Assembly (NCBI RefSeq): GCF_031181385.1
Contig: NZ_JAPSKV010000013.1
Span: 75,321 to 113,983, forward strand
Reading direction: 5' to 3'
From: Fredinandcohnia onubensis
GTDB taxonomy: Bacteria; Bacillota; Bacilli; Bacillales; Bacillaceae_L
Length of the DNA: 38,663 nucleotides
Numbering within the stretch: the first letter of the stretch is position 1; each line of letters starts with the position of its first letter. The notes under the pieces were generated by a model. The model was not told where the DNA came from, ran no database searches, and saw nothing but the letters and a program-made list of their open reading frames with translations. Below, one piece after another: positions 6,381 through 27,166 of this stretch. The position numbers were made by a program, and so were the translations under genes.

Positions 6381-6396
6381 TGGCACGGTATTTGCA
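6381..6396 (+). promoter_or_regulatory. Sigma-54 (-24/-12) promoter of the amidohydrolase-potD unit
   Basis: TGGCAC-GGTAT-TTGCA matches the -24/-12 consensus TGGCAC-N5-TTGCW exactly. The expected start site is near 6408, leaving a leader of about 87 nt. I do not see the palindrome found at the three other island loci within the 200 bp upstream. Confidence 0.88.
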
Positions 6397-6494
6397 TAAC
6401 TAATTCACGATGGATTTGGTATGTCAAAGGGGGAGAATACAAAAAAATATATAGTTATGAAGTGTCACTTGCCATTTTTGAGGAGGGATAGGGC

Positions 6495-8135
6495 TTGTAC
6501 GCAGATATTATCATTCATGGAAATGCAATATTCACGGGAAATGATTCTAGTCCAATACAGGGAGTAGTTATTATCAAGGACGATAGAATCTTAGAAGTTG
6601 GCGAAATTGTAAATGTGAACGACTATATTTGCCCTGAGACAAAGGTCATTCATGCAGAAGATAAGCTTGTTTTACCTGGTTTTCATGACTTTCATCTTCA
6701 TCTTGTTTTAGGGAGTATGTTTAGCGAATTCACAACACTAACAGAATGTACCTCAGAGGAAGAGGCTGCTCAAAAAATGTACCATTATGCACAGGAGAAT
6801 CCAGATGATCTTTGGGTGTTAGGATTTGGCTGGCATCATGTAAGATGGCCGGAGAAAAAGACGCCTACCCGGCATACACTTGATCAACTCATTCCCAATC
6901 GTCCAGTGTTCCTTTTGAACGAGGAAGCGCATAGTGCATGGGTGAACTCTAAAGCTTTGAAACTTTTAAACATTACGAAAGAAACTCAAGACCCACCATT
7001 TGGTTTAATTGAAAAAGATGAGAATGGGGAACCAACTGGATTTTTGTATGAAACAGCTGTTAAGCTTGTTGCCGAAATTGCCTATCAATTCTCAGAGAAT
7101 AAACAGCGTAAATTAATGGATGCTTTTTTGAAAAGGACTGCTTTCAATGGAATTACATCTGTAAGTGATATGCTTCCACTGCCTGGCTTTGAATTAGGTT
7201 CTCCATCCTTTTATGCAACATATGAAAAAGAAGGAAAATTAACTACTAGAATCCACTTTTTATCCGCCCTCGATGGGGACTTATCAAAGGCGAGGGCCTA
7301 CAGAGAACAATATCAATCTGATAAATTACAGTTTTCCGGACTAAAACAATTTATTGACGGTGTTCCGAATACGTATACGGGTTACTTAATTGAGCCTTAT
7401 ACAGACCGACCGGATACAAGAGGTGGCATTTTATTTAATCAAGCAACGTATATGAAGTGGATAAACGAAGCCGATAAGGAAGGGTTTCGCATTCGACTAC
7501 ACGCATGTGGGGATGGAGCAGTTCGATTTGGGCTAGATTGTTTCGAGGGAGCACAGAAGCAAAATGGAAAGCGGGATTCAAGACATACAATTGAACACAT
7601 CGAGGTCATTCATCCTGATGATATTAACCGATTTGTAGAGCTCCAGGTCATTGCGTCCATACAACCAGAGCACATGAGTGCTGAATCAATGGAAGGGCAT
7701 ACATATCTTGAACGATTGGGGCCAGAACGTTCGAGGTACACATGGCCAATTGGTTCCTTGAAGAATAGTGGCGCATCCATTGCTTTTAGCAGTGACTATC
7801 CGGTTGTTGATATGAACCCACTGCTTGAAGTTTTTCGCGCCGTAACAAGAAGAAATGCAGATGGAACACCAGAAGATGGTTGGAATCCACAAGAAAAAAT
7901 AACACTTGCAGAAGCGCTGCAGTTCTATACAAAGGCACCTGCCTATGGGAATTTTCGGGAGCATGATTTAGGAACTCTTGAGTCTGGAAAAAAAGCAGAC
8001 GTGGTCATCTTGGATCGTAATCTATTTTCAGTTGATGTGGTTGAGATTTTAGAAGCAAAGGTTGAGATGACCATTATGGACGGAAATATCGTTTACACAA
8101 GGGAGCAAACAAAAAAGTTGGAGGGGGCAATATGA
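6495..8135 (+). CDS. YtcJ-type metal-dependent amidohydrolase (amidohydrolase_3 family)
   Basis: A 546-aa cytoplasmic protein of the amidohydrolase superfamily, close to YtcJ-like proteins and N-substituted formamide deformylase relatives. The metal-binding HxH is His67-Leu-His69 in PGFHDFHLHL. Other superfamily landmarks follow: RLHACGDGAV, TIEHIEVIHPDD and SSDYPVVDMNP with the terminal Asp. The C-terminal LESGKKADVVILDRN is the usual beta-sandwich return. It starts with TTG after AGGAGGG; its N-terminus, YADIIIHGNAIFTGN, matches the family. Its stop directly abuts the potD start, so it is probably translationally coupled to a polyamine-binding protein. That suggests an N-substituted or acylated amine substrate, but this is inference. 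Confidence 0.85.
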   Translation: MYADIIIHGNAIFTGNDSSPIQGVVIIKDDRILEVGEIVNVNDYICPETKVIHAEDKLVLPGFHDFHLHLVLGSMFSEFTTLTECTSEEEAAQKMYHYAQENPDDLWVLGFGWHHVRWPEKKTPTRHTLDQLIPNRPVFLLNEEAHSAWVNSKALKLLNITKETQDPPFGLIEKDENGEPTGFLYETAVKLVAEIAYQFSENKQRKLMDAFLKRTAFNGITSVSDMLPLPGFELGSPSFYATYEKEGKLTTRIHFLSALDGDLSKARAYREQYQSDKLQFSGLKQFIDGVPNTYTGYLIEPYTDRPDTRGGILFNQATYMKWINEADKEGFRIRLHACGDGAVRFGLDCFEGAQKQNGKRDSRHTIEHIEVIHPDDINRFVELQVIASIQPEHMSAESMEGHTYLERLGPERSRYTWPIGSLKNSGASIAFSSDYPVVDMNPLLEVFRAVTRRNADGTPEDGWNPQEKITLAEALQFYTKAPAYGNFREHDLGTLESGKKADVVILDRNLFSVDVVEILEAKVEMTIMDGNIVYTREQTKKLEGAI

Positions 8136-9203
8136 ATGTATAGGAAAACAAAAATATTCGTAATTGCATTCATTTTATTGACGATGACATTTTTATCAGC
8201 GTGTGGGGGAAATGAAGCGGGAGGTGCTAAACAATCAGATGAAAAGGTATTAAATTTATTTAACTGGGCGGAGTATTTACCACAAGAAGTAATTCAGCAA
8301 TTTGAAGAGGAAACGGGAATAAAAGTAAATTACGATGCGTACTCAAGTAACGAGGAAATGATGGCGAAATTACAAGCGGGAAATACACAATATGATATTG
8401 CAGTGGCCACAACATTTTTCGTTGATATCTTGTTAAAACAGGATTTAATTCAAAAAATAAATAAAGAAAATATCCCAAATGTTAAAAATTTAGAACCTAA
8501 ATTTACTTCAGCAGAATTTGATAAAGATGGCGACTATTTCATTCCATATCTGTGGGGTTCTGGTGTTCTATTTCAAAATACCGATCTCGTTGATTTTGAG
8601 ATAAAAGGCTATAAGGACCTTTTTAGACCTGAGCTAAAGGATAAAATCGTCTTACCTGATGACCAACGTGGTGTAATCGGGTTAGCCTTACAAATGCTTG
8701 GCTACTCCATGAATACAACGGATGAAAAAGAATTAGAAGAAGCGAAAGAAAAGCTTCTAGAGCTTCGTTCAAATATAAGAGCATTTAATACAGAACCAAA
8801 AACAATGATGATTGCTGGGGATGTTGCAGCAGGAATGGCGTGGACAGCTGAAGTATTTAATGCACAGAAAGAAAATCCAGCTATTGTTCCGATTATTCCT
8901 GAAGAAGGTCTCATGGTTTTCCATGATAATTTTGTCATTCCAAAAGGTGCACCACATCTTGCTAATGCAGAAAAGTTTATTGATTTCTTACTTCGACCTG
9001 AAATTAGTAAAATCATTTCGACAACCTATCCGTATGGGAATCCGAATATGGAAGCGTATAAATTGTTACCGGAGGATTTAAAAAATAATAAAGTTGTATA
9101 TCCAGACCTAGACCAAGTTACTAATGTTCAACAGGCGCTTGATATAGGGGAAGCAACACAATTGTATGACCGTATCTATAGTGAATTAAAGGCTGGTAAC
9201 TAG
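8136..9203 (+). CDS. potD: Spermidine/putrescine-binding lipoprotein PotD, copy 1
   Basis: Extracytoplasmic substrate-binding lipoprotein of a polyamine ABC importer. The signal peptide is clear: Arg/Lys near the N-terminus, a hydrophobic stretch of residues 7-19, and the lipobox LSAC with Cys23. The mature part has the PotD-type NLFNWAEYLPQEVIQQFEEETGI, YSSNEEMMAKLQAGN and the C-terminal STTYPYGNPN. The length, 355 aa, is normal. The ATG follows the preceding stop with no gap, and GGAGGGGG lies within the preceding gene. A second, clearly related PotD is at 18103-19161. The permease and ATPase genes are separate units downstream. Confidence 0.93.
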   Translation: MYRKTKIFVIAFILLTMTFLSACGGNEAGGAKQSDEKVLNLFNWAEYLPQEVIQQFEEETGIKVNYDAYSSNEEMMAKLQAGNTQYDIAVATTFFVDILLKQDLIQKINKENIPNVKNLEPKFTSAEFDKDGDYFIPYLWGSGVLFQNTDLVDFEIKGYKDLFRPELKDKIVLPDDQRGVIGLALQMLGYSMNTTDEKELEEAKEKLLELRSNIRAFNTEPKTMMIAGDVAAGMAWTAEVFNAQKENPAIVPIIPEEGLMVFHDNFVIPKGAPHLANAEKFIDFLLRPEISKIISTTYPYGNPNMEAYKLLPEDLKNNKVVYPDLDQVTNVQQALDIGEATQLYDRIYSELKAGN

Positions 9204-9207
9204 GATA

Positions 9208-9241
9208 AAAAAGGTGGGCTCGTAAGTGGGTCTACCTTTTT
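9208..9241 (+). terminator. potD terminator, overlapping the next promoter
   Basis: An A-rich left arm running into AAGGTGGGCTC pairs with GGGTCTACCTT (three wobble pairs) and is followed by TTT. The last T is also the first base of the -24 element of the next sigma-54 promoter. Confidence 0.8.
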
Positions 9242-9256
9242 GGCATGTTTTTTGCA
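9241..9256 (+). promoter_or_regulatory. Sigma-54 promoter of potA
   Basis: TGGCAT-GTTTT-TTGCA has the invariant GG and GC at correct spacing. The expected start is near 9268, about 33 nt before the potA ATG. It begins within the T-run of the upstream terminator. Confidence 0.85.
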
Positions 9257-9300: not shown

Positions 9301-10380
9301 ATGTCGGTAAATATGGTCGAACTACGAGACATCAATAAACAATTCGGGGAAACGAAGGTTGTTCAAAATGTATCATTGAATGTAAAAGAGGGAGAGTTTC
9401 TAACATTACTAGGGCCAAGTGGATGTGGGAAAACAACAACACTCCGGATGATTGCTGGATTTGAACAACCAACCTCAGGAAGCATTCTCTTAGATGGTAA
9501 GCAAGTGGAAGGAATACCTGCAAATAAACGAAATGTTAATACTGTCTTTCAGAGCTATGCCCTTTTTCCACATATGAATATTTTTGATAACGTGGCATTC
9601 GGTCTTAAAATGAGAGGCGAGGATAAGGGGGTAATTAAAGAGAGGGTATCGAAAATGCTAGAGTTAGTTCGTTTACAGGGCTATGAGAAAAGAACTCCAG
9701 CACAGCTTAGTGGTGGTCAAAAGCAGCGGATTGCAATTGCAAGAGCCTTAATTAACAATCCAAAAGTCATTTTATTAGATGAACCACTAGGCGCATTAGA
9801 CCTCAAGCTCCGAAAACAAATGCAGGTTGAATTGAAGCATCTTCAACAACAGCTTAAAATCACCTTTATTTATGTTACTCATGATCAGGAAGAGGCACTT
9901 ACGATGTCAGACCGAATTGCGGTAATGAATAATGGATTCATAGAGCAGTTAGGTTCTCCAACTGAAATATATGAGAAACCACAAACCAAGTTTGTTGCTG
10001 ATTTTATTGGAGAAACGAACTTATTTGAAGGACAAATATCAAGGCTAGATAATAGCTTTGCCTATTTAGATTTCGGTGGTAAGGAAATTGAAGTTAAGAA
10101 TGAAGGACTAAACGTTGGTGAAAAAGTATTTGTCACGATTCGCCCAGAACGAATTAAGATTGTTAGAGAGCAGTCCCCAACAACGAATTCTGTACAATTA
10201 AAAGGTAGGTTTAAGGAACTTATATATGTTGGATCTGTTTCAAAAATGGTGGTTTTACTCGAAAATGGGAAGGAAGTAGTTGTGAATGAACAAGCAGCTG
10301 GTTCCCAAGTAAATGAGTACATAAATAAGGATATTTATTTAACGTGGGGAGTCGACCATGGTGTTGTCATGAAGGAATAG
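9301..10380 (+). CDS. potA: Spermidine/putrescine ABC transporter ATPase PotA
   Basis: Cytoplasmic ATPase that powers polyamine import with PotB and PotC. The 359-aa protein has Walker A GPSGCGKT (38-45), the Q-loop TVFQSYALFP, signature LSGGQ (136-140), Walker B ILLDEP (157-162) and the switch THDQEEA. After about residue 235 comes the TOBE/MOI regulatory domain (IGETNLFEG; TIRPERIKI) typical of PotA. AAGGGGGA precedes the ATG. It is monocistronic here and convergent with potC, unlike the usual potABCD operon, but all pieces are under sigma-54 promoters. Confidence 0.96.
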   Translation: MSVNMVELRDINKQFGETKVVQNVSLNVKEGEFLTLLGPSGCGKTTTLRMIAGFEQPTSGSILLDGKQVEGIPANKRNVNTVFQSYALFPHMNIFDNVAFGLKMRGEDKGVIKERVSKMLELVRLQGYEKRTPAQLSGGQKQRIAIARALINNPKVILLDEPLGALDLKLRKQMQVELKHLQQQLKITFIYVTHDQEEALTMSDRIAVMNNGFIEQLGSPTEIYEKPQTKFVADFIGETNLFEGQISRLDNSFAYLDFGGKEIEVKNEGLNVGEKVFVTIRPERIKIVREQSPTTNSVQLKGRFKELIYVGSVSKMVVLLENGKEVVVNEQAAGSQVNEYINKDIYLTWGVDHGVVMKE

Positions 10381-10513: not shown

Positions 10514-11296
10514 CTATCCATTTTTCCTCATCAACAGGCGTTCACCGACAATGACTGCACCAAGGGTAACGACAAGCATTAATGTGGATAATGCATTAAT
10601 TTCCGGTGTGACCCCGTATCGAACCATTGAGAATATTTGTAATGGCAGTGTTGTACTTCCCGGACCTGCTACGAAGAAACTCACGATTACATCATCCAGA
10701 GATATTGTAAAAGAAAGCAATGCACTTGCGACAATTGCTGGACCTATAATCGGTAAGGTAATAAGTCGAAAGGTCTGCCATTCACTAGCCCCCAAATCCA
10801 TGGCAGCTTCTTCTACAGAACGATCAAATCCTTTCAGACGAGCCCTTACAACGACAACAACATAAGGAATACAAAATGTAATATGAGAAACAATGAGTGT
10901 CCAGATTCCTAATGGCATTTTTACCATCGAAAAGAATGCTAGTAATGCAATTCCCATAACGATTTCCGACATGACAAGGGGAATATATAGCATTCCATCT
11001 AGCATCGATTTTCCTTTGAAATGATATTTGTACAATCCTACAGATACGAGTGTTCCTAAAATGGTTGATACAATCGTAGAGACAATCGCTACTATAATCG
11101 TAATTTTGGCTGCCTCTAATACTTCCGTATTTGACCAAAGCTTTGCATACCACTCAAATGTAAAACCAGTCCAAACGGCGTTAAGCTTTGATTTATTAAA
11201 TGAAAACATAATTAAAATCAGAATCGGTAAATACAAAAAGGAATAAATAAGAGCGCCATAAATGATTGACGACCATTTTGTAAATCGTGAATTCAC
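10514..11296 (-). CDS. potC: Polyamine ABC transporter permease PotC
   Basis: Inner-membrane permease, 260 aa, with about six hydrophobic segments. The EAA loop that contacts PotA is EEAAMDLGASEWQTFRLITLP in the second half, and the N-terminal SSIIYGALIYSFLYLPILILIMFSFN is the typical first membrane span. It starts with GTG, separated by a single base from the potB stop, with a GGGGGTG ribosome site inside potB. Together with potB it forms a two-gene unit read leftward from a sigma-54 promoter at 12260-12275. Confidence 0.95.
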   Translation of the reverse strand: MNSRFTKWSSIIYGALIYSFLYLPILILIMFSFNKSKLNAVWTGFTFEWYAKLWSNTEVLEAAKITIIVAIVSTIVSTILGTLVSVGLYKYHFKGKSMLDGMLYIPLVMSEIVMGIALLAFFSMVKMPLGIWTLIVSHITFCIPYVVVVVRARLKGFDRSVEEAAMDLGASEWQTFRLITLPIIGPAIVASALLSFTISLDDVIVSFFVAGPGSTTLPLQIFSMVRYGVTPEINALSTLMLVVTLGAVIVGERLLMRKNG

Positions 11297-11297: not shown

Positions 11298-12218
11298 CTA
11301 CATCACCCCCAAGTCATCTTTATTTCCTTTTGAAATACGTAGATAAACAGCTATTAGTATCATTGTTAAAATAACCAAAATAACGGACGATGCTGCTCCA
11401 AATGGCCAGTCCCTTGCAGTAAGGAACTGATTTTTAATCAGATTTCCAATCATCATCGTCTTTGCCCCTCCCATTAAGTCAGGAATGAAAAAGAGCCCTA
11501 AGGTTGGAATAAAAACAAGTAATGAACCAGCAACGATACCAGGCATTGTTAGCGGGAGTGTAATTTTCATAAAGGTTTGCCAGCCCTTTGCCCCTAAATC
11601 GCTGGCTGCCTCCAAATACGATTTATCAAGCTTTTCAATCGACGCATACAAGGGAAGAACCATAAAAGGAAACAGAGTATACACAAGACCTACCAATATA
11701 GCGCCATTATTATAAAGTAGCGCCAGTGGTTCTGAAATTAGACCGATACTCATTAAGAGATGGTTGATTACCCCTTCGGTACGCAGCAAGATGATCCATG
11801 CATATGTGCGTATAAGTGAGTTCGTCCAAAAAGGGATTATAACGAGAAATAATAACAAGGTTCGATACTTAGGGGAAGAACGCGCAATCAAATATGCAAA
11901 TGGATATCCAAAAATTATGCATATGGCGGTTGTAACAGTTGCCATCAGGATTGACGACAGTAGTATGTTCATATATAGAGAGTCAAAAAATCGTGCATAA
12001 TTCTCGAGGGTAAAGACGTATTCAATGCCACCATACGTGCCCCTCGACATAAAACTTACAACAAGTATTAAGACAATCGGAATAAATAGAAATGCAATCA
12101 TCCAGAATGTTACTGGGGAAATCATCCAGATGGCACCTGCGCTTTTTATCCTCCTCTTTTTCGGTCGTTTTGTTTGAAATTTGACCGGTTGACCTGTAGA
12201 TAACTCTTCTTTGTTCAT
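11298..12218 (-). CDS. potB: Polyamine ABC transporter permease PotB
   Basis: Inner-membrane permease, 306 aa. A basic N-terminal tail (KFQTKRPKKRRIKS) precedes a first membrane segment around residues 30-55, and several more spans follow. The EAA loop is YLEAASDLGAKGWQTFMKITLP. The ATG is preceded by AGGAGGGG at good spacing. It is the first gene of a potB-potC unit transcribed away from the FAD oxidase gene; the shared intergenic region holds two sigma-54 promoters and one palindrome. Confidence 0.95.
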   Translation of the reverse strand: MNKEELSTGQPVKFQTKRPKKRRIKSAGAIWMISPVTFWMIAFLFIPIVLILVVSFMSRGTYGGIEYVFTLENYARFFDSLYMNILLSSILMATVTTAICIIFGYPFAYLIARSSPKYRTLLLFLVIIPFWTNSLIRTYAWIILLRTEGVINHLLMSIGLISEPLALLYNNGAILVGLVYTLFPFMVLPLYASIEKLDKSYLEAASDLGAKGWQTFMKITLPLTMPGIVAGSLLVFIPTLGLFFIPDLMGGAKTMMIGNLIKNQFLTARDWPFGAASSVILVILTMILIAVYLRISKGNKDDLGVM

Positions 12219-12259: not shown

Positions 12260-12275
12260 TGCAAGATTCATTCCA
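12260..12275 (-). promoter_or_regulatory. Sigma-54 promoter of potBC
   Basis: Read on the minus strand: TGGAAT-GAATC-TTGCA. The invariant GG and GC are present with N10 spacing between them; the -24 box differs from consensus at two less conserved bases. The expected start is near 12248, some 30 nt before potB. The palindrome centred at 12343 lies 68 bp upstream of the -24 box. Confidence 0.78.
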
Positions 12276-12326
12276 ACTTCAAAGTATCTGAATTAAAAAA
12301 GTAGTAAGAATCACCAAAGAGATTTT

Positions 12327-12359
12327 ATGCACATGTGAATAACTTATTCAATTTTGCAT
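12327..12359. promoter_or_regulatory. 33-bp palindromic operator, proposed enhancer for the sigma-54 activator
   Basis: Outer arms ATGCA (12327-12331) and TGCAT (12355-12359) and inner arms TGAATAA (12336-12342) and TTATTCA (12344-12350) form a perfect two-level inverted repeat around a central C. It stands between divergent sigma-54 promoters, 68 and 80 bp from their -24 boxes, the distance expected of an upstream activating sequence. The same architecture recurs at 19230-19262. Confidence 0.8.
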
Positions 12360-12422
12360 AGTGCTTATCCAAGATAAAAACGAATTCAAAATGTTGCTGT
12401 AAATTTTTGTGAAATTCTAAAC

Positions 12423-12438
12423 TGGTACGATACTTGCA
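12423..12438 (+). promoter_or_regulatory. Sigma-54 promoter of the FAD oxidase unit
   Basis: TGGTAC-GATAC-TTGCA keeps the invariant GG and GC. The expected start is near 12450, about 36 nt before the TTG start of the oxidase gene. The palindrome is 80 bp upstream. Confidence 0.85.
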
Positions 12439-12485
12439 TAATTCTATTTTAGGTAGAAACGGAAAGATGTAGGAGAGTGGAGAAT

Positions 12486-13760
12486 TTGAAACAAATTTCT
12501 ATGTGGGAAGCAACCTCAAATAAGAAAAAACAACGTTCACCCTTATCTGTTAATCAAGAATGTGATGTGGTCATTATTGGAGGAGGCTTTACGGGGCTAT
12601 CGACGGCATACCATTTACAAAAGAAAAACATTAAAACAATTGTACTTGAAAAAAGCTATATCGGTAGCGGTGCAAGTGGGAGAAATGGAGGTCAAATTTT
12701 AACAGGCTTTATTGATCCCATGAGCTCACTAGCAAAGAAAAAAGGTTTGGAAACTGCAAAACAAATGCTTCAAATGTCGCTTGATTCAATTGATTTAATT
12801 GAACAGATTAGTAAGGATAATCAAATTGCATGTTCCTTCAAGCGCACTGGTCACCTCTACGCCGCGTATAAGCCGACACATATTGACTGGCTAAAAGAAG
12901 AACAACAGATACTAGAACGAGACTTTAATTACAAGGTTCAGGTAATTGATCAGAAGGAATTACACACAGAGCTAAAAACAAATTTTTATCATGGTGGTTG
13001 TATTGATGAAAATAGTGCAACCTATCACCCTTTTGACTATGTACTTGGGTTGGCAGATGCTGTAGAAAAGCTTGGGGGTACAATCTTTGAGAATTCCGAG
13101 GCACGTCAAATCATAAAAGCTAAAAATGGTAAAGTCACCATTGAAACTCAAGATGGAAGGGTTACAGCTGCTCATTTGGTTATTGTCACAAACGCCTATT
13201 CAGGAAACCTGCATAAAACCATTTCCAGAAGTATCATTCCAGTTGAAAGCATAATGATTGCGACTGAACAATTACCAAAAGAACTTGTTTCTTCGTTAAT
13301 TCCAAATAATAGAGCGATATTTGATACAAAGCACATGCTTTATTATTTTAGGAGAACTCCTGACGATCGGATTGCATTCGGGGGATCTGGTAGATCCGTA
13401 AGTGGTGATACAGGTTCACTTTATCAAAAGTTAAAAGAGGGAATGGACACGGTTTTTCCAGAACTAAGAAAGTATAAGTCTGAATTTTGTTGGAGCGGGA
13501 AGGTTGGATTTACCAGGGAAATGCTCCCTTACATTGGTCAGCTTGAGGATGGCACGCATTTTGCGTTCGGCTATGCTGGTCATGGTGCCGCAATGTCGAC
13601 ATTAATGGGGAAGCTACTCGCTGAGAATATCCTTTCTGAGAACAATGGGAAAAATCCGTTCGAAAAAAATGATTTACGACCAATCCCGTTTTATAGTCAG
13701 CATGGAAAAGTAGTCGGTCTAATGAAGTACTATTTTAAGGTTAAAGACGCCATCTCATAA
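12486..13760 (+). CDS. FAD-dependent amine oxidoreductase (DAO family, PuuB-like)
   Basis: Predicted to oxidise a primary or N-substituted amine to an aldehyde with FAD. With the chosen start it is 424 aa. The dinucleotide-binding motif IIGGGFTGLS is near residues 30-39, and YIGSGASGRNGGQI is the typical DAO-family segment also found in gamma-glutamylputrescine oxidase PuuB. The C-terminal FAD motif is FAFGYAGHGA. I chose TTG at 12486: AGGAGAG at 12471 gives proper spacing, whereas the GTG at 12477 overlaps that ribosome site. It leads a unit with a C45 hydrolase, an aldehyde dehydrogenase and a GNAT-nitrilase. No PuuA or PuuD is in the window, so the real substrate is open. Confidence 0.87.
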   Translation: MKQISMWEATSNKKKQRSPLSVNQECDVVIIGGGFTGLSTAYHLQKKNIKTIVLEKSYIGSGASGRNGGQILTGFIDPMSSLAKKKGLETAKQMLQMSLDSIDLIEQISKDNQIACSFKRTGHLYAAYKPTHIDWLKEEQQILERDFNYKVQVIDQKELHTELKTNFYHGGCIDENSATYHPFDYVLGLADAVEKLGGTIFENSEARQIIKAKNGKVTIETQDGRVTAAHLVIVTNAYSGNLHKTISRSIIPVESIMIATEQLPKELVSSLIPNNRAIFDTKHMLYYFRRTPDDRIAFGGSGRSVSGDTGSLYQKLKEGMDTVFPELRKYKSEFCWSGKVGFTREMLPYIGQLEDGTHFAFGYAGHGAAMSTLMGKLLAENILSENNGKNPFEKNDLRPIPFYSQHGKVVGLMKYYFKVKDAIS

Positions 13761-13844
13761 TAGGTTCAACAGATGCCGGCATACAATAGTAAACGTGGAA
13801 AGTTTAAATTTTAAAGAAATATGCCACTAGAAAGGAATGTCGAC

Positions 13845-14921
13845 ATGATAAAAAAACTCCAGCTGTCTGGGGCGCCAAAGCAAATTGGGGAACAACACGG
13901 CAGCGAAGGGAAAGACGAGGTTCATCAAAGTCTTGAAACCTATGAATCTCTTTTTTACGGGTATAGCAAAATAAGTTGGAAGCAAGCAATTCAGTTGGCA
14001 CTAGGACATTTGCCAGCAATAGAATCCTATAATCGTGACTTTATAGCTGAAATGGAAGGAGTTGCTAAGGGGGCTGGGGTAATCTTTGAGGATATTTTAG
14101 TGTTGAATACTCGAAGTGAAATTGCATTAGCCGGAAGAAAAACATTTTCTGATGGTTGTACGGCTATTGCCATAACCCCACCATATACCGAGGAAACAAT
14201 CATAGGCCAAAATTGGGATTGGAAAATGGAACAAGCAAATAGCCTACTACTGCTTGAAATCGAGCAAAAGAATAAGCCAGCGATAAAAATGATAACGGAG
14301 GGAGGATTAATTGGGAAGATTGGCTTAAATAGTAGCGGAATTGGTGTCTGTTTAAATGCACTCCATACGAATAAAAAGTCTAATCAAATACCTATTCATT
14401 TAGGACTACGTAGTGTCCTTAATTCTCATACCCTCCATGAAGCTGTTTCTAACATAAAACATGGGCAAATGGCATCTGCAGCCAATTTCCTCATTGCCTT
14501 TGAAGATGATAATAAGCAGGCAATGGCAGCTAATTTTGAGGTTTCACCATATGGAATGGATATGATTTCAAACAGTGAAGGAATTCTTGTTCACACGAAT
14601 CATATTTGTTCACTCGAGGTTCAGAAACATCTAATCGATATGAATGAATACAAGTTTGAGGATTCGATGGTCCGTAAAAAACGAGCAGAACAGCTGATTT
14701 ATAAGAGCATTAGAGCGGGAAATGAAATTGATGAGAATTGCTTTAAGGAATGGTTTTCTGATACTTTCAACTATCCAAATTCCATTAATCATCATGTAAA
14801 TACAAGTGCACCGAAGCATCGCCAAATGGAGACAGTCTTTTCTGTCATTATGAATCTATCAAAACGAACCATGCAGCTCTGCATAGGAAAACCCTCGGTG
14901 AATGGATATGTTGAAATATAG
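13845..14921 (+). CDS. C45-family Ntn-hydrolase (acyl-CoA:6-APA acyltransferase-like)
   Basis: Member of the peptidase C45 / isopenicillin-N acyltransferase-like family, N-terminal-nucleophile hydrolases that cleave or exchange amide-bound acyl groups after self-cleavage before a Cys. The candidate nucleophile is Cys105 in SDGCTAIAI, matching the family Gly-Cys-Thr site. Other family marks are EMEGVAKGAG, NTRSEI (88-93) and IGQNWDW. The 358-aa length fits. ATG 13845 is chosen because AAAGGA lies 8 nt upstream; the ATG at 13821 has no ribosome site. Between an amine oxidase and an aldehyde dehydrogenase it could remove an acyl group from an N-acylated polyamine or acyl-GABA; this is inference. 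Confidence 0.83.
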   Translation: MIKKLQLSGAPKQIGEQHGSEGKDEVHQSLETYESLFYGYSKISWKQAIQLALGHLPAIESYNRDFIAEMEGVAKGAGVIFEDILVLNTRSEIALAGRKTFSDGCTAIAITPPYTEETIIGQNWDWKMEQANSLLLLEIEQKNKPAIKMITEGGLIGKIGLNSSGIGVCLNALHTNKKSNQIPIHLGLRSVLNSHTLHEAVSNIKHGQMASAANFLIAFEDDNKQAMAANFEVSPYGMDMISNSEGILVHTNHICSLEVQKHLIDMNEYKFEDSMVRKKRAEQLIYKSIRAGNEIDENCFKEWFSDTFNYPNSINHHVNTSAPKHRQMETVFSVIMNLSKRTMQLCIGKPSVNGYVEI

Positions 14922-18045: not shown

Positions 18046-18061
18046 TGGCATATAATTTGCA
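18046..18061 (+). promoter_or_regulatory. Sigma-54 promoter of potD copy 2
   Basis: TGGCAT-ATAAT-TTGCA, with invariant GG and GC, begins 17 nt after the stop of the preceding gene. The expected start is near 18073. No copy of the palindrome is seen nearby. Confidence 0.85.
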
Positions 18062-18102
18062 GGAAATAAAATAGAATCTATTTTAAAAAGGGGAGAGTGT
18101 AT

Positions 18103-19208: not shown

Positions 19209-19229
19209 TTACCACTTAACCTAGAAGTT

Positions 19230-19262
19230 ATGCAAAATTGAATAACTTATTCACTTTTGCAT
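19230..19262. promoter_or_regulatory. 33-bp palindromic operator, second copy
   Basis: Outer arms ATGCA (19230-19234) and TGCAT (19258-19262), inner arms TGAATAA (19239-19245) and TTATTCA (19247-19253), and central C all match the copy at 12327-12359; only the two 4-nt spacers differ. It is centred 67 bp before the -24 box of the aldehyde dehydrogenase-patA promoter. Confidence 0.82.
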
Positions 19263-19312
19263 TCCCAGTCCAAAAAGATCTTGGGGCCAGTGGAAAGGAG
19301 TAACAACTAACT

Positions 19313-19328
19313 TGGCACATATTTTGCA
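19313..19328 (+). promoter_or_regulatory. Sigma-54 promoter of the aldehyde dehydrogenase-patA unit
   Basis: TGGCAC-ATATT-TTGCA is an exact match to the -24/-12 consensus. The expected start is near 19340, about 27 nt before the ATG at 19367. Confidence 0.9.
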
Positions 19329-19366
19329 TAATAAATAGTTGTGAAAAACCAAAGGGGAGGATGGAA

Positions 19367-20839
19367 ATGCAGAAGCTAAAGATGTTTATCAATGGGGAAT
19401 GGGTCGATGCCCAAAGTAAAAAGACTCGTTCAATCATAAATCCTGCAAATGGAAAAGTAATTGCAGAAGCTGCAGAAGGTGATGTTGAGGACGCTAAAAT
19501 TGCTATAGAAGTAGCACGACATGCATTTGATTCAGGAATTTGGTCCGATTTATCTGCTGCAGAACGGGCATCCTACCTGTTAAAAATTGCCGATAAACTT
19601 GAGGAACGTGCCGATGAGATAAGTAAACTTGAAACAGAAGATAATGGAAAACCACTTAGAGAAACAGAATTTGACGTAGCAGATGCAGTTGCATGTTTTC
19701 GCTATTACGCAGGCCTAGCAACAAAGCCAGATGGCCAAACCTATCATGTGGCAGACCCGATGCAGGCAATGGTGGTTCGTGAACCAGTTGGCGTATGTGG
19801 ATTAATTGTCCCATGGAATTATCCTCTTCTCATGGGTGTATGGAAAATCGCACCTGCACTTGCTGCAGGGAATACGATTGTTTTTAAGCCTTCTGAGGTC
19901 ACCCCAGTGACATCCATAAAGCTATTTGAGATTATTCAAGAGGTCGGTATCCCTGCGGGGGTAGCGAATATGGTAATGGGACCTGGATCGACTGTAGGTA
20001 ATGAAGTAGCAGAGAGCCATAAGGTAGATAAGGTTTCATTTACAGGTGGAACTGCAACTGGTCGGAGTATTATGAAGGCGGCAACAGGCAATATTAAGAA
20101 GATTTCATTAGAATTAGGTGGAAAATCGCCGAATATAGTGTTTGCTGATGCTGACTTTGATACGGCGGTTGATTATGCTTTATTTGGAATTTATTCAAAT
20201 GCGGGTCAGGTATGTTCTGCAGGTTCGCGACTACTTTTAGAAGAAAGCATCCATGACAAGTTTATCGATAGGTTGGTAGAAAGAGCAAAGAAAATACGAG
20301 TGGGTCCCGGTGATGATCCAAATACTGAAATGGGTTCACTTGTAAGCCAGCAGCATATGGAAAAGGTATTATCTTATATCGAGATTGGCAAACAGGAAGG
20401 AGCTAAACTTGTTTGCGGTGGTAACAGGATTACTAAGAATGGTCTCGAGAGCGGGTATTTCGTAGAGCCAACTATATTTATAGATACAACACCAGATATG
20501 AGGATTGTTCAGGAGGAAATTTTTGGACCTGTACTAGTGGTTCAAAAATTTAAAGATGAAGCAGAAGCAATTAAACTAGCAAATAATACAGATTATGGGC
20601 TTGCAGCTGGAGTATTTACACAGGATGGTGCCAAAGCACTCCGTGTCATTAAGAAAATTCGCGCAGGGATCACGTGGATTAACACTTACCATCCAACCTA
20701 CAATGAAGCTCCATGGGGTGGTTACAAGCAGAGTGGGATTGGTCGTGGATTAGGAACATTTGGTTTTGAAGAATTTACAGAAGTCAAACAAATTAATATA
20801 AATCTACAAGTTGAACCATCTGGCTGGTTCGAAAACTAA
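19367..20839 (+). CDS. Aldehyde dehydrogenase, probable 4-aminobutanal dehydrogenase (BetB/PuuC-like)
   Basis: A 490-aa NAD-dependent dehydrogenase. It has VPWNYPLLMGVWKIAPALAAGN and KPSEVTPVTS for the cofactor, Glu249 in LELGGKSP, and catalytic Cys283 in GQVCSAGSR. This signature is that of betaine-aldehyde and gamma-aminobutyraldehyde dehydrogenases. Being co-transcribed with putrescine aminotransferase (16-nt gap), it most likely oxidises 4-aminobutanal to GABA, the PatD role. ATG 19367 is chosen over 19361 because the ribosome site GGGGAGG ends at 19360. A betaine-aldehyde role cannot be excluded from sequence. Confidence 0.92.
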   Translation: MQKLKMFINGEWVDAQSKKTRSIINPANGKVIAEAAEGDVEDAKIAIEVARHAFDSGIWSDLSAAERASYLLKIADKLEERADEISKLETEDNGKPLRETEFDVADAVACFRYYAGLATKPDGQTYHVADPMQAMVVREPVGVCGLIVPWNYPLLMGVWKIAPALAAGNTIVFKPSEVTPVTSIKLFEIIQEVGIPAGVANMVMGPGSTVGNEVAESHKVDKVSFTGGTATGRSIMKAATGNIKKISLELGGKSPNIVFADADFDTAVDYALFGIYSNAGQVCSAGSRLLLEESIHDKFIDRLVERAKKIRVGPGDDPNTEMGSLVSQQHMEKVLSYIEIGKQEGAKLVCGGNRITKNGLESGYFVEPTIFIDTTPDMRIVQEEIFGPVLVVQKFKDEAEAIKLANNTDYGLAAGVFTQDGAKALRVIKKIRAGITWINTYHPTYNEAPWGGYKQSGIGRGLGTFGFEEFTEVKQININLQVEPSGWFEN

Positions 20840-20843: not shown

Positions 20844-22232
<1,389 letters not shown>

Positions 22233-22328: not shown

Positions 22329-23201
22329 TTATTTTAATACTCTCTTTAGTAGTTCACCATAGCTGTCAGGTCTTCGATCCCGATGGAATTGAAGAATATT
22401 TCTGGCTTTGGTGATTTCATTTAAATCAATCTCTGCCAGGATAATTTCATCCTCTTTTGTTTCCGCTTCTTTTAGAACAGTACCCCAAGGATTACTAATA
22501 AAGCTGCGTCCATAAAATTCCATATATCCTTCTTTGCTATATTCACGCCCAACGCGATTCACAGCAGCTATAAAAATATTATTGTGAATACCATGCGCTC
22601 GAATGGCGTCCATCCATGTTTGAGATGTATCAAGTTCAGGGTTATCTGGTTCTGTGCCAATTGCAGAGGGATAGAAAATAATATCGGCTCCTTTTAATGC
22701 TAGAATGCGAGATGGCTCAGGAAACCATTCGTCCCAACATATGAGAACACCAATCGTTCCGTATGTTGTTTCAAAAATGGGATAACCAGAATCCCCTTCT
22801 GTAAAATAGTATTTTTCAATATATTGGGGGCCTTCTGGGATATGATGTTTTCGATACTTTCCTAGATTGGTTCCATCAGCATCAAAAACTACGACCGTGT
22901 TAAAATAAAGCCCATCCATCACATACTCATATAAAGAGACAATCAAGACGACTTTAAGCTCTTTCGCAAGTTGTTGCATTTGATTACTGATTGGTCCAGG
23001 TATGGGTTCTGCCCAACCATATTTATTGACATCTATCGTTTGTGGAAAATAAGTACCTGTAAAAAGCTCTTGTGTACAAATTACCTGAGCCCCTTGCTTT
23101 GCGGCTTTTCGGATCATTTCTCTCGATTTTTCAAAGTTAGCATGTCGATCATCCGAGCAGCTATGCTGAATTAATGCGATATTCATCTTATCTCGATTCA
23201 T
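22329..23201 (-). CDS. aguB: N-carbamoylputrescine amidase
   Basis: Nitrilase-superfamily amidase that hydrolyses N-carbamoylputrescine to putrescine, CO2 and ammonia. With the ATG at 23201 it is 290 aa, the usual length. The full triad is present: Glu45 in CTQELFTG, Lys118 in YRKHHIP, and Cys155 in LICWDEWFPE. HSCSDDRHANFEKS and DTSQTWMDAIRAHGI are typical of AguB. The ribosome site is GGAAGGA; a TTG at 23228 would extend the protein but has no ribosome site. It lies downstream of aguA in the same unit, so agmatine is taken to putrescine in two steps. Confidence 0.95.
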   Translation of the reverse strand: MNRDKMNIALIQHSCSDDRHANFEKSREMIRKAAKQGAQVICTQELFTGTYFPQTIDVNKYGWAEPIPGPISNQMQQLAKELKVVLIVSLYEYVMDGLYFNTVVVFDADGTNLGKYRKHHIPEGPQYIEKYYFTEGDSGYPIFETTYGTIGVLICWDEWFPEPSRILALKGADIIFYPSAIGTEPDNPELDTSQTWMDAIRAHGIHNNIFIAAVNRVGREYSKEGYMEFYGRSFISNPWGTVLKEAETKEDEIILAEIDLNEITKARNILQFHRDRRPDSYGELLKRVLK

Positions 23202-23228
23202 GTGCACACATCCTTCCGATAATTTCAA

Positions 23229-24323
23229 CTAAATTGGTAGTTGTTGGGTTATACAATGAATATTCCCACCGCCTAGCGCAATTTCTCTTGTATTGACTTG
23301 CACAACCTTTCGATCTGGAAAAAGTGCTTCAAATTGTCGAAGTGCGATTGAATCATATGGATCCCCAAACCCAGGGATAATAATGCCGCCATTGCATATA
23401 TAGCTATTTACATAAGTACAGGCAAGTATCGTACCTGGCTTCCGACCATAACTGTGACGTGCAATATCAATTCCTTCACTTTCCTTATCTGTTATTTCAA
23501 TTTGAGTGGGGATGTGAATCTTATGAATCTTAAACTTTCTTCCTTTTGCATCTGTGGCATTTTTTAATTGGTTATAGCATTCAGTTAAGATATCATATTG
23601 TGGATTAGCTTTATCATCCGTCCAACTCATGGCAACTTCACCAGGGCGTACGAAAAAGACTACTTCATCGACATGCCCATCCGTTTCATCAAAAAGCATT
23701 CCATTTTTGAGCCAAATAATCGTGTCCACATTTAAATATTCTTTTAATCGATACTCGATATCTTCTTTTGATAAGTGAGGATTTCTATTTTTATTTAAAA
23801 GACATTGTTCAGTTGTAATGAGGGTACCATCTCCATCGACAGTAATCGACCCTCCTTCGAGGATAAAATCCTGCGCATCATAGCGATTGATTTGGTCAAT
23901 TTCCAATACCTTTTGTTTGACTAAGTTGTCTAAATTCCATGGAAAATAAAGACCGTTTTCAAGCCCTCCCCAGGCATTAAAGCCCCAGTCAATTCCACGG
24001 ATTTCACCTGCTTCATTTTTAACGTAGGTAGGTCCAATATCCCTCATCCAAGCGTCATTTGAGGAAATCTCAACAACACGAATGGAACGGGGGAGCATTT
24101 CCCGTACATGCTCATATTGGTTCGCAGAAACACCAATTGTGACAGGCTCAAACTTCGAAATGGCAATTGCGACTTGGGCAAAGGCCTTTTGAGCAGGCTT
24201 CGCACCTAATCTCCAAGTGTCCGTTCTCTCTGGCCAGAGCATCCAAGTTCCTTTGTGAGGCTCGAATTCTCCAGGCATTCTAAAGCCATCACGGCGAGGG
24301 GTGCCTGTTAATTTTTCAACCAT
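23229..24323 (-). CDS. aguA: Agmatine deiminase
   Basis: Agmatine iminohydrolase, which converts agmatine to N-carbamoylputrescine and ammonia. With ATG at 24323 it is 364 aa. Family landmarks are TPRRDGFRMPGEFEPHKGTWMLWPER at the N-terminus (so this start fits), DAWMRDIGPT, LEGGSI, DGHVDEVVFF with the catalytic His, and LGGGNIHCITQQ with nucleophile Cys357. A TTG at 24365 in the same frame also has a ribosome site and would add 14 residues, but the family alignment favours 24323. It is transcribed with aguB from a sigma-54 promoter at 24404-24419. Confidence 0.95.
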   Translation of the reverse strand: MVEKLTGTPRRDGFRMPGEFEPHKGTWMLWPERTDTWRLGAKPAQKAFAQVAIAISKFEPVTIGVSANQYEHVREMLPRSIRVVEISSNDAWMRDIGPTYVKNEAGEIRGIDWGFNAWGGLENGLYFPWNLDNLVKQKVLEIDQINRYDAQDFILEGGSITVDGDGTLITTEQCLLNKNRNPHLSKEDIEYRLKEYLNVDTIIWLKNGMLFDETDGHVDEVVFFVRPGEVAMSWTDDKANPQYDILTECYNQLKNATDAKGRKFKIHKIHIPTQIEITDKESEGIDIARHSYGRKPGTILACTYVNSYICNGGIIIPGFGDPYDSIALRQFEALFPDRKVVQVNTREIALGGGNIHCITQQLPI

Positions 24324-24403
24324 TCTATTTCCTCCAGTAATCTTGTGATTGCTTATTCTTTTCAACTAATCTCCTCCCATTTGAAATGCTCATCCTAGAA
24401 TGA

Positions 24404-24419
24404 TGCAAAAATCATACCA
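24404..24419 (-). promoter_or_regulatory. Sigma-54 promoter of aguA-aguB
   Basis: Read on the minus strand: TGGTAT-GATTT-TTGCA, with invariant GG and GC. The expected start is near 24392, about 70 nt before the chosen aguA ATG. Operator copies lie 59 and 80 bp upstream of its -24 box. Confidence 0.84.
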
Positions 24420-24461
24420 ATTTATCTCATTTAATCGGATAAAAATAAAAAATAGGAAGCT

Positions 24462-24510
24462 ATGAAAAAGTGAATAAACTATGCATAAATGAATAATTAA
24501 TCTATTCATT
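24462..24510. promoter_or_regulatory. Degenerate double operator between aguA and the lipoyl-like gene
   Basis: Two overlapping candidate sites. Site A (24462-24494) matches the 33-bp palindrome at 20 of 24 arm positions (ATGAA, TGAATAA, CTATGCA, TGAAT at the same spacing). Site B (24488-24510) is a perfect inverted repeat, AATGAATA and TATTCATT with a 7-nt centre, preceded by ATGCA at the usual distance from TGAATAA. Divergent sigma-54 promoters flank the pair, with -24 boxes 57-80 bp away. Confidence 0.65.
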
Positions 24511-24555: not shown

Positions 24556-24571
24556 TGGCACATAAATTGCA
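24556..24571 (+). promoter_or_regulatory. Sigma-54 promoter of the lipoyl-like gene
   Basis: TGGCAC-ATAAA-TTGCA is an exact consensus match. The expected start is near 24583, about 31 nt before the GTG start. Confidence 0.9.
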
Positions 24572-24613: not shown

Positions 24614-24862
24614 GTGGAGCATGATGAAATCGTTACTAGCCCCTGCCATGGAATAATAAAAAAAATCAAAGTAAAAGAAAAAGATAAAATAATGGAATGG
24701 GAGCCACTTTTTATCATTCAAACTTATTATGGTGAGAATAAAGTAATCACGGTAGGGATAAGGGGGAGTGTTCAATCAATCGAAGTCCAAGAAGGGGATG
24801 AAGTGATACCTGGTATGGTTCTCAGTTATGTAAAAGACGATTCTTATATTGAAAGTTATTGA
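24614..24862 (+). CDS. Small stand-alone biotinyl/lipoyl-like domain protein lacking the modified Lys
   Basis: An 82-aa protein. Its two halves resemble the two strands-and-turn units of a biotinyl/lipoyl barrel: SPCHGIIKKIKVKEKDKIMEWEPLFIIQ (about 9-36) and IRGSVQSIEVQEGDEVIPGMVLSYV (about 49-73). The turn between them, where carriers have EAMKM or ETDKA, reads QTYYGEN, with no Lys at the modification site. GTG follows AGGAGG at 7 nt. It is under a perfect sigma-54 promoter, is the only gene of its unit, and stands next to the activator gene. I infer a fold, not a function; a swinging-arm carrier role seems unlikely. Confidence 0.7.
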   Translation: MEHDEIVTSPCHGIIKKIKVKEKDKIMEWEPLFIIQTYYGENKVITVGIRGSVQSIEVQEGDEVIPGMVLSYVKDDSYIESY

Positions 24863-24891
24863 GAAGATTATTTCTTCTCTTTTTTATTTTT
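24861..24891 (+). terminator. Terminator of the lipoyl-like gene
   Basis: GAGAAG (24861-24866) and CTTCTC (24874-24879) with a 7-nt loop are followed by a long T-rich run. The stem starts at the stop codon. Confidence 0.85.
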
Positions 24892-24961: not shown

Positions 24962-27097
24962 ATGTTTTCTGTGGATCCAAAAATTATTAAACCATTAACA
25001 GTATTTGATATTGAATCAATTGAAATGGAGTTTGGAGCGTATTGTATTACCAAAACTCAAGAACCCTACCTTTTTATTAAACAGAAACATAAAATAATAG
25101 GATATGTACCTATTAAGGTATTTTCAAAAATTGGAGATGATGATAAAGAAGCCACAGTAGAAAAAATTAAGAGCAAGCTAATTCGTATTGAGAAAATATT
25201 GCAACTCAGTAAAAGTGTTTCCTTGCCTATTATCTTTCAAATAATTGGAGAGCCGTTTGCATTGATAAAGGATGATACCGGAGAAATAAGTGGTTACATA
25301 CCGAGAGAAGATCTACTAGCTGAACTGTTTAGGCAAGGTAATAAAAATATTGATTTATTAAAGGTTATATTAACCTCGATTCCAATGGGAATATTTGTTG
25401 TAGATCGTGAGAGAAATATCGTTTCCTACAATGAATCAGCCTTAGAAATGATAAAAATGACTCCAGAAAATGTACTACACACACCCGCAGAGAAAATCTT
25501 CGCAAAAGAGCACATCAATAGCGTATTTCAAAATGGAACCACAGTGTTGAATCAGCTTCACATCACAGCTACAATGAGTGTTTTAGTTGATTACAGTCCA
25601 ATCTATACTCCTGAGAAACAAGTTGATGGGATGGTTATTATTGTACAGGACCTTCCCATGGTTGAAGAAATGGCAAATGAAATTGAATATATTAGGGATT
25701 TGAATCATGATATGCAAGCGATTCTTTCCAGTGTGTACGACGAAATTCTAGTAGTGAACGCGAAGGGAGAATTGATACGTTTCAGCGATACAGAAATCTC
25801 ACAATTTTGGGGAGTTGAATTAAGAAGCCTTCTAGGAAAAAACATCATCGAGCTTGAACAAAAAGGGTTATTTACCCCTTCGGTCACGAGGTTGGTCCTT
25901 GAACAAAAGAAAAAGGTATCTGTCGTTCAAGAGACGAAAGCTGGGAAAAGGATACTTGCCGTTGGTAAACCAGTGTTTAATGAATCGGGTGAGCTCATTC
26001 GAATCATTATTGCCTCCCGAGATATTACTGAAACTACAAAACTTAAGAATGAACTTCGTCAAATGAAGGAAATCTCGAATCAGTATAAACGTGAACTTGA
26101 TGATATGAAAACAAAAGATTTATTTTATAAGAAGCTAATTTATTGTAGTCCAAAAATGGAAGAGATTATGACACAAGTAAAAAAGATAGCCGATTTTTCC
26201 TCAACGGTACTCATAAATGGAGAATCTGGGGTGGGGAAAGAGGTGATAGCTCAAGCGATTCACCAACTCGGAAGTCGTTCGAAAAAACCTTTCCTAAAGC
26301 TTAATTGTGGAGCAATACCGGAGAGCCTACTTGAAAGTGAGTTATTTGGCTATAGTAAGGGATCTTTCACAGGAGCAGATAAAAATGGAAAAGAAGGGTA
26401 TTTTAAACAAGCCGATGGAGGGGTCTTATTTCTTGATGAAATAGGTGAAATGCCATTGCATTTACAAGTTAAACTACTACGGGTTCTCCAAGAGAAAGAA
26501 GTCATTCCAATTGGCAGCACGAAACCAATTAAAGTTGATGTTCAGATTGTTGCAGCTACCAATAAAAACCTTGAAAAAATGGTAGAAAACCGTGAATTTA
26601 GAGAAGATTTATTTTATCGATTAAATGTGATTCCGATTCATATTCCTCCATTAAGAGAACGTCCAGAGGACATACCATTACTTGCCTTTCATTTCGTTCA
26701 ACAAATGAATGAACGATATAATAAAAACTACCATTTAACTCCTGATGCTTTAAACCTACTAGAGGTTCATTCATGGCCAGGAAATATTCGAGAGCTTCAA
26801 AATATGATTGAGCGGCTTGTTGTATCAGCCGATGATGAAGCCATTGATGCTGAGTTTGTGAATCGCTACCTTGTTCTTGGGAAGGATATAAAAAGTTCAA
26901 AACCGATTGTTACAAAAATTGCGCCCCTTCAGGAAGCATTAGAATCGGTTGAAGAGCAGTTGATTTTACTAGCCATAAAGCAATATAAAACAACTACTAA
27001 AGCTGCTAAAGCGCTGGGGATTAGCCAATCCTCTGTTAGCAGAAAATACCAAAAAATCTTAGCTGAACAGCATGGAAACGTAGAAAATGTTTACTAA
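24962..27097 (+). CDS. Sigma-54-dependent transcriptional activator (N-terminal repeat-PAS-PAS-AAA+-Fis HTH)
   Basis: A 711-aa enhancer-binding protein that would activate the nine -24/-12 promoters here. Order of parts: residues 1-125, a region with an internal repeat (EPYLFIKQKHKIIGYVP near 34 and EPFALIKDDTGEISGYIP near 97), CBS-like in look; PAS domains at about 131-230 and 250-355; a coiled linker to 390; AAA+ from 392 to about 615, with Walker A GESGVGKE (420-427), sigma-54 contact loop GSFTGA (467-472, usually GAFTGA) and Walker B GVLFLDEI; and a Fis-type HTH at about 677-697 (TKAAKALGISQSSVSRKYQ). No receiver domain, so it senses a ligand rather than phosphorylation. ATG 24962 follows AAGGGGG. 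Central position in the island supports its being the local regulator. Confidence 0.92.
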   Translation: MFSVDPKIIKPLTVFDIESIEMEFGAYCITKTQEPYLFIKQKHKIIGYVPIKVFSKIGDDDKEATVEKIKSKLIRIEKILQLSKSVSLPIIFQIIGEPFALIKDDTGEISGYIPREDLLAELFRQGNKNIDLLKVILTSIPMGIFVVDRERNIVSYNESALEMIKMTPENVLHTPAEKIFAKEHINSVFQNGTTVLNQLHITATMSVLVDYSPIYTPEKQVDGMVIIVQDLPMVEEMANEIEYIRDLNHDMQAILSSVYDEILVVNAKGELIRFSDTEISQFWGVELRSLLGKNIIELEQKGLFTPSVTRLVLEQKKKVSVVQETKAGKRILAVGKPVFNESGELIRIIIASRDITETTKLKNELRQMKEISNQYKRELDDMKTKDLFYKKLIYCSPKMEEIMTQVKKIADFSSTVLINGESGVGKEVIAQAIHQLGSRSKKPFLKLNCGAIPESLLESELFGYSKGSFTGADKNGKEGYFKQADGGVLFLDEIGEMPLHLQVKLLRVLQEKEVIPIGSTKPIKVDVQIVAATNKNLEKMVENREFREDLFYRLNVIPIHIPPLRERPEDIPLLAFHFVQQMNERYNKNYHLTPDALNLLEVHSWPGNIRELQNMIERLVVSADDEAIDAEFVNRYLVLGKDIKSSKPIVTKIAPLQEALESVEEQLILLAIKQYKTTTKAAKALGISQSSVSRKYQKILAEQHGNVENVY

Positions 27098-27100
27098 ACA

Positions 27101-27139
27101 AAAAAACTATTGGTTCTCTTTCGGAATCAATAGTTTTTT
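27101..27139 (+). terminator. Terminator of the activator gene
   Basis: AAAAAACTATTG (27101-27112) and CAATAGTTTTTT (27128-27139) form a perfect 12-bp stem; further pairing (TTC/GAA) is possible in the loop. The symmetric A/T tracts could stop transcription both ways. Confidence 0.9.
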
Positions 27140-27150
27140 GTCTATAAAAT

Positions 27151-27166
27151 TGGCATAGATTTTGCA
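27151..27166 (+). promoter_or_regulatory. Sigma-54 promoter of gabT-gabD
   Basis: TGGCAT-AGATT-TTGCA with invariant GG and GC, 12 nt after the terminator. The expected start is near 27178. A single TGAATAA half-site (27168-27174) overlaps the start region; no full palindrome is seen upstream. Confidence 0.86.

Follow-up and report, generated by a model that had tools for sequence, protein, structure and literature searches.

Genes for the uptake and breakdown of polyamines are clustered in the window analysed here, the whole of a 38,663-nucleotide stretch from Fredinandcohnia onubensis (contig NZ_JAPSKV010000013.1, positions 75,321 to 113,983 of the forward strand). They form a block of approximately 23 kb, from 6381 to about 30020 and referred to below as the island, which also carries nine predicted sigma-54 promoters, enhancer-like elements at three places and a sigma-54 activator gene (Table 1). 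The polyamine content recognised by an initial annotation of the open reading frames (ORFs) agrees with family searches, although several matches are below curated cut-offs. Two aldehyde dehydrogenases are encoded besides GabD.

Table 1. Features of the island and of rpoN, numbered from the first nucleotide of the window
Position	Strand	Feature	Remark
6381..6396	+	Predicted sigma-54 site before amidohydrolase-potD1	Same 16-mer at Bacillus timonensis ortholog
6495..8135	+	Amidohydrolase (Amidohydro_3)	Best solved relatives are uncharacterised metal-dependent hydrolases
8136..9203	+	PotD1, spermidine/putrescine-binding lipoprotein	PRK09501, E 2e-83, below cut-off
9241..9256	+	Predicted sigma-54 site before potA	No nearby dyad; conserved in 4 genomes
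9301..10380	+	PotA, polyamine ABC ATPase	TIGR01187, over cut-off
10514..11296	-	PotC permease	PRK09500, E 3e-94, just below cut-off
11298..12218	-	PotB permease	PRK09497, over cut-off
12260..12275	-	Predicted sigma-54 site before potBC	Strict pattern, congener alignment
12326..12360	.	Enhancer-like dyad	Between divergent sites 12260(-) and 12423(+)
12423..12438	+	Predicted sigma-54 site before flavin adenine dinucleotide (FAD) oxidoreductase operon	Strict pattern, congener alignment
12477..13760	+	FAD-dependent amine oxidoreductase (DAO fold)	
13821..14921	+	C45 autoproteolytic acyltransferase/hydrolase	NF040521, over cut-off; AAT
14948..16375	+	Aldehyde dehydrogenase, succinate-semialdehyde type	TIGR01780, 601 bits, below cut-off
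16460..18028	+	GNAT and carbon-nitrogen hydrolase fusion	Ser at usual Cys position
18046..18061	+	Predicted sigma-54 site before potD2	No nearby dyad; strict pattern, congener alignment
18097..19161	+	PotD2, spermidine/putrescine-binding lipoprotein	PRK09501, E 2e-86, below cut-off; 1pot, E 5e-78
19229..19263	.	Enhancer-like dyad	Upstream of site 19313
19313..19328	+	Predicted sigma-54 site before aldehyde dehydrogenase-patA operon	Strict pattern, congener alignment
19361..20839	+	Aldehyde dehydrogenase, putative 4-aminobutanal dehydrogenase	BADH family, 636 bits, below cut-off; patA companion in relatives
20856..22232	+	PatA, putrescine aminotransferase	PRK11522, 770 bits, over cut-off
22329..23228	-	AguB, N-carbamoylputrescine amidase	TIGR03381, E 1e-97, below cut-off
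23229..24365	-	AguA, agmatine deiminase	TIGR03380, over cut-off
24404..24419	-	Predicted sigma-54 site before aguAB	Strict pattern, congener alignment
24461..24496	.	Tandem enhancer half-sites	Between divergent sites 24404(-) and 24556(+)
24556..24571	+	Predicted sigma-54 site before small biotin-carrier-fold ORF	Strict pattern, congener alignment
24614..24862	+	Small ORF, 82-aa biotinyl/lipoyl-fold protein	No biotinylation motif
24861..24889	+	Intrinsic terminator	Between small ORF and activator gene
24962..27097	+	Sigma-54 activator, 711 aa	N-terminal domain of unknown kind, PAS, AAA+ (GSFTGA), HTH
27151..27166	+	Predicted sigma-54 site before gabT	No nearby dyad; strict pattern, congener alignment
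27205..28560	+	GabT, 4-aminobutyrate aminotransferase	PRK06918, over cut-off
28587..30020	+	GabD, succinate-semialdehyde dehydrogenase	TIGR01780, over cut-off
36942..38252	+	RpoN (sigma-54)	TIGR02395, over cut-off; 7 kb beyond gabD

All nine -24/-12 elements listed in the initial annotation were found at the positions given for them, and each reads TGG-N-A-Y-N5-TTGCA, with the invariant GG and GC at fixed spacing and the TTGCA ending that had been described. A match at 13550 was left out, as it lies inside an ORF and ends in TTGCG. None of the nine is covered by an ORF of at least 100 aa, and the distance from the end of the site to the start of the ORF is 32 to 44 nt in eight and 98 nt for the ORF at 6495. 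The elements were also said to precede nearly every transcription unit. This holds with two exceptions, the activator gene and an aminotransferase gene at 30092(-).

The case for these elements rests on the strict pattern because, when three mismatches are allowed, the number of matches in the window (116) is barely above that in 100 shuffled sequences (mean 91.7, standard deviation 9.5, largest 117). A genome-wide search for the strict pattern, TGGNAYN5TTGCA, gives 68 matches, and nine of them are in the 20.8 kb of the island that the sites span, where 0.29 are expected from the rate elsewhere (Poisson p ~3e-11). Outside the island, stretches of 20.8 kb starting at a site contain at most two. 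The other 59 sites (57 stretches) were classified by ORF only, without gene annotation: 48 are inside ORFs of at least 100 aa and 11 are candidates, comprising four clean sites (no covering ORF and a same-strand ORF within 300 nt), one with neither a covering nor a nearby ORF and six ambiguous sites no more than 150 nt from the start of a same-strand ORF. Six sites of the form TTGGYAYN5TTGCT are present in the genome and stand outside the classified set. The island thus holds nine of the genome's 13 clean strict sites. The remaining four adjoin the genome's four other strong sigma-54 activator genes, one each, and precede rocD (ornithine aminotransferase), kamA (lysine 2,3-aminomutase), ptb (phosphate butyryltransferase) and a GntP-like permease gene. 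As rocD, kamA and the ptb-bkd operon are the targets of RocR, KamR and BkdR, the strict pattern recovers known biology and these four sites serve as a positive control.

Within the genus the island is accessory: four of nine genomes carry the activator, and exactly the same four have the dyad described below. The other carriers are B. timonensis AF060A6, Bacillus sp. HNG and Ferdinandcohnia quinoae SECRCQ15. Eight of the sites are conserved in all three, and in the aligned promoters the -24/-12 positions are intact where the flanks have diverged. The stretches read contain nine strict sites in B. timonensis, eight in HNG and eight in F. quinoae. The place of site 6381 could be read in one congener only, B. 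timonensis, as F. quinoae has no amidohydrolase gene there and in HNG that place is outside the stretch read. F. quinoae has an agmatinase gene instead of aguAB, and the site in front of it is at the matching position. The initial annotation had proposed a genome scan to show whether such a density of sites is unique. The island is the densest region within its own genome, yet it is not alone in this: the four carriers in the genus have eight to nine strict sites, and a 12-kb part of G207, a distant genome, has about six. The G207 sites are associated with genes for an aminotransferase, an aldehyde dehydrogenase, glutamate dehydrogenase, AguAB and PatA, beside an activator ortholog with 51% identity.

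Comparison of upstream sequences revealed a 35-bp dyad, TATGCAAAATTGAATAA-C-TTATTCACTTTTGCATA, at two places in the island, and related half-sites stand in tandem at a third. In this genome the dyad, with three mismatches allowed, is confined to those two places, and exact matches to the half-site pattern occur nowhere but at the three. Five of the nine promoters have an element within 80 bp. Across 119 genomes the dyad, with up to three mismatches, matched 11 places in activator loci and seven elsewhere; a reversed control pattern matched three genomes. Half-site matches were compared with a looser sigma-54 pattern, TGG[ACT][AT][CT]N5TTGC[AT]. In 13 ortholog loci, 34 of 41 half-site matches are 20 to 180 bp upstream of a sigma-54 match, a zone that makes up 2.5% of the sequence. 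With three congeners left out, 19 of 24 matches in the ten distant loci lie in this zone (200 column-permuted matrices: mean 0.1, largest 2), and 17 of 19 dyad matches with up to five mismatches are near a site, in nine of the ten loci. In ten loci added later, 16 of 19 dyad-like matches (up to five mismatches) are within 190 bp upstream of a site, eight of them at 76 to 80 bp, and 40 permuted dyads gave a mean of 0.5 matches, none near a site. A preferred spacing of 75 to 80 bp between element and site is visible. At the level of sequence, this co-occurrence in relatives links the elements to the activator.

The activator is encoded by one of five strong sigma-54 activator genes in the genome. 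It matches Sigma54_activat (245 bits) and HTH_50. Pfam recognises a single PAS domain, and a weak model hints at another. Pfam returned PAS, sigma-54 and HTH domains only, with no receiver domain such as an activator of the NtrC response-regulator type would have. For the N-terminal domain the model is weak (mean predicted local distance difference test score, pLDDT, 64) and Pfam CBS matches are sub-threshold in two of four sequences, so no ligand is assigned to the sensor domain. The loop that contacts sigma-54 reads GSFTGA here and in G027, G050 and L004, and GAFTGA in the 11 other orthologs read. Site 24556 was considered as the direct promoter of the activator gene, a simple reading that was rejected because the small ORF and a terminator intervene; read-through from this site into the activator gene may occur. 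Upstream of the activator gene there is a sigma-A-like match (24899-24928), from a scan that found two such matches against a shuffle mean of 3.8. The closeness of rpoN to the island may be incidental since rpoN also follows trxB in all five island-less congeners (a partial match in G002). Rarity, intergenic placement, conservation in congeners, enhancer-like elements next to five of the sites, an activator gene within the block and the presence of rpoN in the window together support the prediction that the nine elements are sigma-54 promoters.

Orthologs of the activator are present in 14 of the 119 genomes, its own included (at least 786 bits; next best 490), and at E 1e-200 the family occurs in 42 of 396 genomes sampled from the order, in 20 of 135 genera. 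A likely binding element and a link to polyamine use can now be proposed for this family. PatA is encoded near the activator and behind a sigma-54 site in 12 of 14 mapped loci and in nine of ten further ones (21/24), and the aldehyde dehydrogenase matching that of patA in 12 of 14 and eight of ten. Further partners behind sigma-54 sites are agmatinase, a transporter of the amino-acid-permease type, glutamate dehydrogenase and GabT or GabD. The activators of G067 and G050 adjoin an aminotransferase, C45, an aldehyde dehydrogenase and the GNAT fusion (a partial match in G067), with no PatA. The G324 activator, also without PatA, is accompanied by Pot genes, the amidohydrolase, the FAD oxidoreductase and the set of aminotransferase, C45, aldehyde dehydrogenase and GNAT fusion. 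These loci can be read as two modules under one activator, one for agmatine and putrescine and another for a second amine route, both of them in the window.

The small ORF in front of the activator gene was modelled with a pLDDT of 89.5 and resembles biotin carboxyl carrier protein (BCCP; template modelling score 0.81). The motif for biotinylation is MKM, and this was absent from the small ORF in five aligned sequences. In 11 of 15 ortholog loci (14 and L004) it directly precedes the activator gene, while in G075 the two are apart; G088 also has it ahead of a GabR-like activator. It was not found in the G027, G050 and G109 loci. Among ten later loci it is present in five. A hairpin and T run follow it in nine of 13 ortholog rows, judged by eye. 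In several distant loci it follows the glutamate dehydrogenase gene, and in those of the first set the nearest sigma-54 site is 1.5 to 1.7 kb upstream. The ORF is thus conserved beside these activators, though not in every locus.

Sigma-54 control of polyamine genes has precedents, described here from the available parts of the sources cited by PMC number. In Escherichia coli, patA is under NtrC and sigma-54 and the puu cluster has an NtrC-sigma-54 promoter (PMC9397018). Putrescine aminotransferase and the breakdown of putrescine have sigma-54 promoters in E. coli and predicted ones in the island; E. coli combines NtrC with sigma-S promoters, whereas the island, in a Gram-positive bacterium, has a local PAS activator of another type and groups nine promoters into a single block. 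GabR of B. thuringiensis is also a PAS-AAA+-HTH activator beside gabT, with a sigma-54 site before gabT and a long inverted repeat as its binding site (PMC4279683). Its described target is the gabT promoter, and its own promoter is not bound. The island differs from this system in having nine promoters, polyamine uptake, genes for agmatine and putrescine, a longer activator and no element by gabT. A 16-bp inverted repeat near gabT (27101-27139) looks like the terminator of the activator gene. Sigma-54 control of agmatine genes is predicted for the AguQ regulon of Clostridium, which is listed with aguDA, aguBC and aguQT only (PMC6615313). In B. thuringiensis, RocR, KamR, BkdR, SoxR, AcoR, LevR and PrdR control amine or amino-acid breakdown, mostly as PAS activators near their targets, with one or two promoters each against nine here (PMC4428206). 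The words polyamine, putrescine, spermidine and agmatine are absent from the text of PMC4428206. In PMC12316311, as far as its available text goes, the COG0687 putrescine-binding protein is listed with classes of Proteobacteria and arginase/agmatinase with Bacillota. A study of Pseudomonas putida (PMC10606097) was rejected as a precedent, RpoN appearing in its available text only as a reference gene for quantitative PCR. No sigma-54 polyamine regulon described for Bacilli was found in a literature search that most subscription papers fall outside, in line with the initial annotation.

The stretch from 6381 to about 30020 is probably a sigma-54 regulon assembled at a single locus and run by the activator that it encodes. 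Polymerase with RpoN would wait in closed complexes on the nine -24/-12 promoters, and the 711-aa activator, presumably bound to TGCA-N4-TGAATAA elements at three places, would open them when it senses a polyamine or a breakdown product. Putrescine or a near derivative (4-aminobutanal or 4-aminobutyrate, GABA) is the proposed ligand. Looping may bring elements 1.2 to 6 kb distant into contact with promoters 6381, 9241, 18046 and 27151. Under this control, agmatine would be converted via putrescine, 4-aminobutanal and GABA to succinate by AguAB, PatA, the aldehyde dehydrogenase, GabT and GabD. The second part would consist of uptake and a putative second amine route, encoded by the genes for PotABCD, the amidohydrolase, the FAD oxidoreductase, C45, an aldehyde dehydrogenase and the GNAT fusion. 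A more elaborate form of this model, in which three shared enhancers act as a hub for nine promoters over up to 6 kb and the small ORF encodes a dedicated regulatory partner, for example a feedback brake on the sensor domains, is possible but doubtful. Because four promoters have no element close by, this single locus allows action at a distance to be tested directly.

Several observations weigh against control of the whole island by its activator through these elements. The upstream scan found no element within 230 bp of 6381, 9241, 18046 or 27151, and congener alignments, covering 170 bp upstream, contain none. The half-site matrix was derived from the window's own sites, and only six of the ten later loci have an element within 190 bp of a site. 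There is no dyad in the G225, G163 and G324 loci even with up to five mismatches; the G362 locus has a single match, 4.7 kb from a site, and the G067 locus a single match with five mismatches. F. quinoae (G008 C14:53905-53935) has degraded half-sites between its two divergent promoters, with a three-mismatch dyad 1.05 kb off, where the ends of patA and speB converge. Helical phasing in the distant loci, computed from a hand-made list, depends on the period assumed (p ~0.1 for 10.5 bp, 0.0007 for 10 bp and 0.002 for 11 bp). The inducer could also differ from that proposed, because the activators of G067, G050 and G324 stand by other amine genes and not by PatA. The promoters that lack a nearby element could be explained by split control, with the activator running only the five promoters that have one and those of potA, potD2, gabT and the amidohydrolase gene using another activator, or this one from solution. 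Such an arrangement is unlikely: the genome has no more than five strong sigma-54 activator genes, each of the remaining four has a neighbouring target of its own, and the F. quinoae dyad, located past the 3' end of speB, suggests a tolerance of distance.

The position of gabT, which has its own sigma-54 site and adjoins a PAS activator as in the GabR system (PMC4279683), is consistent with an enlarged GabR regulon, in which GABA or succinic semialdehyde would be the signal and the polyamine genes would have been recruited as GABA makers. It is improbable that this accounts for the island. The activator has 711 aa and GabR is a protein of 57 kDa, and the most constant neighbour of the activator is PatA. 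G088 has both kinds, a long activator and a 470-aa one beside gabT-gabD, and in a tree of 23 rows 11 long activators form a 100/100 clade that excludes the latter, although its row is long-branched and B. thuringiensis GabR is not in the tree. Only sequences with GA or GE in the activator loop and an ORF of sufficient length entered this tree; the island's activator, G027 and G050 (GSFTGA), the KamR and BkdR of this genome and several other fetched activators are left out. Chance or decayed motifs in AT-rich intergenic DNA would fit the total of three-mismatch matches in the window, which is hardly above that of shuffled sequence. This origin is vanishingly improbable and was rejected on density, placement and conservation: the strict sites are too many, one stands before each gene set and they are kept in congeners. 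Regulation of the gathered promoters by the island's own activator is retained as the preferred reading.

Five congeners have no island in the 17.5 kb after trxB; the aminotransferase of 30092 is kept in all five and the GNAT fusion in three. The activator and the dyad are absent from these five genomes when searched genome-wide; other island genes were sought only at the trxB locus. Flanking genes of the two closest congeners (G004 and G006, both island-less) are 92 to 99% identical to those of the window in DNA sequence, and their GNAT fusion is 80% identical, while the window's own GNAT fusion is 88% identical to those of two more distant island carriers. This suggests that the island may have moved by recombination within the genus, or been lost.

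The GNAT fusion (16460-18028) has an unusual hydrolase domain. Where a nitrilase domain usually has Cys, seven of eight sequences found by motif have Ser and one (G050) has Gly, which weakens a reading of the fusion as an acylase/de-acylase pair. The hydrolase domain is likely to be inactive or reworked.

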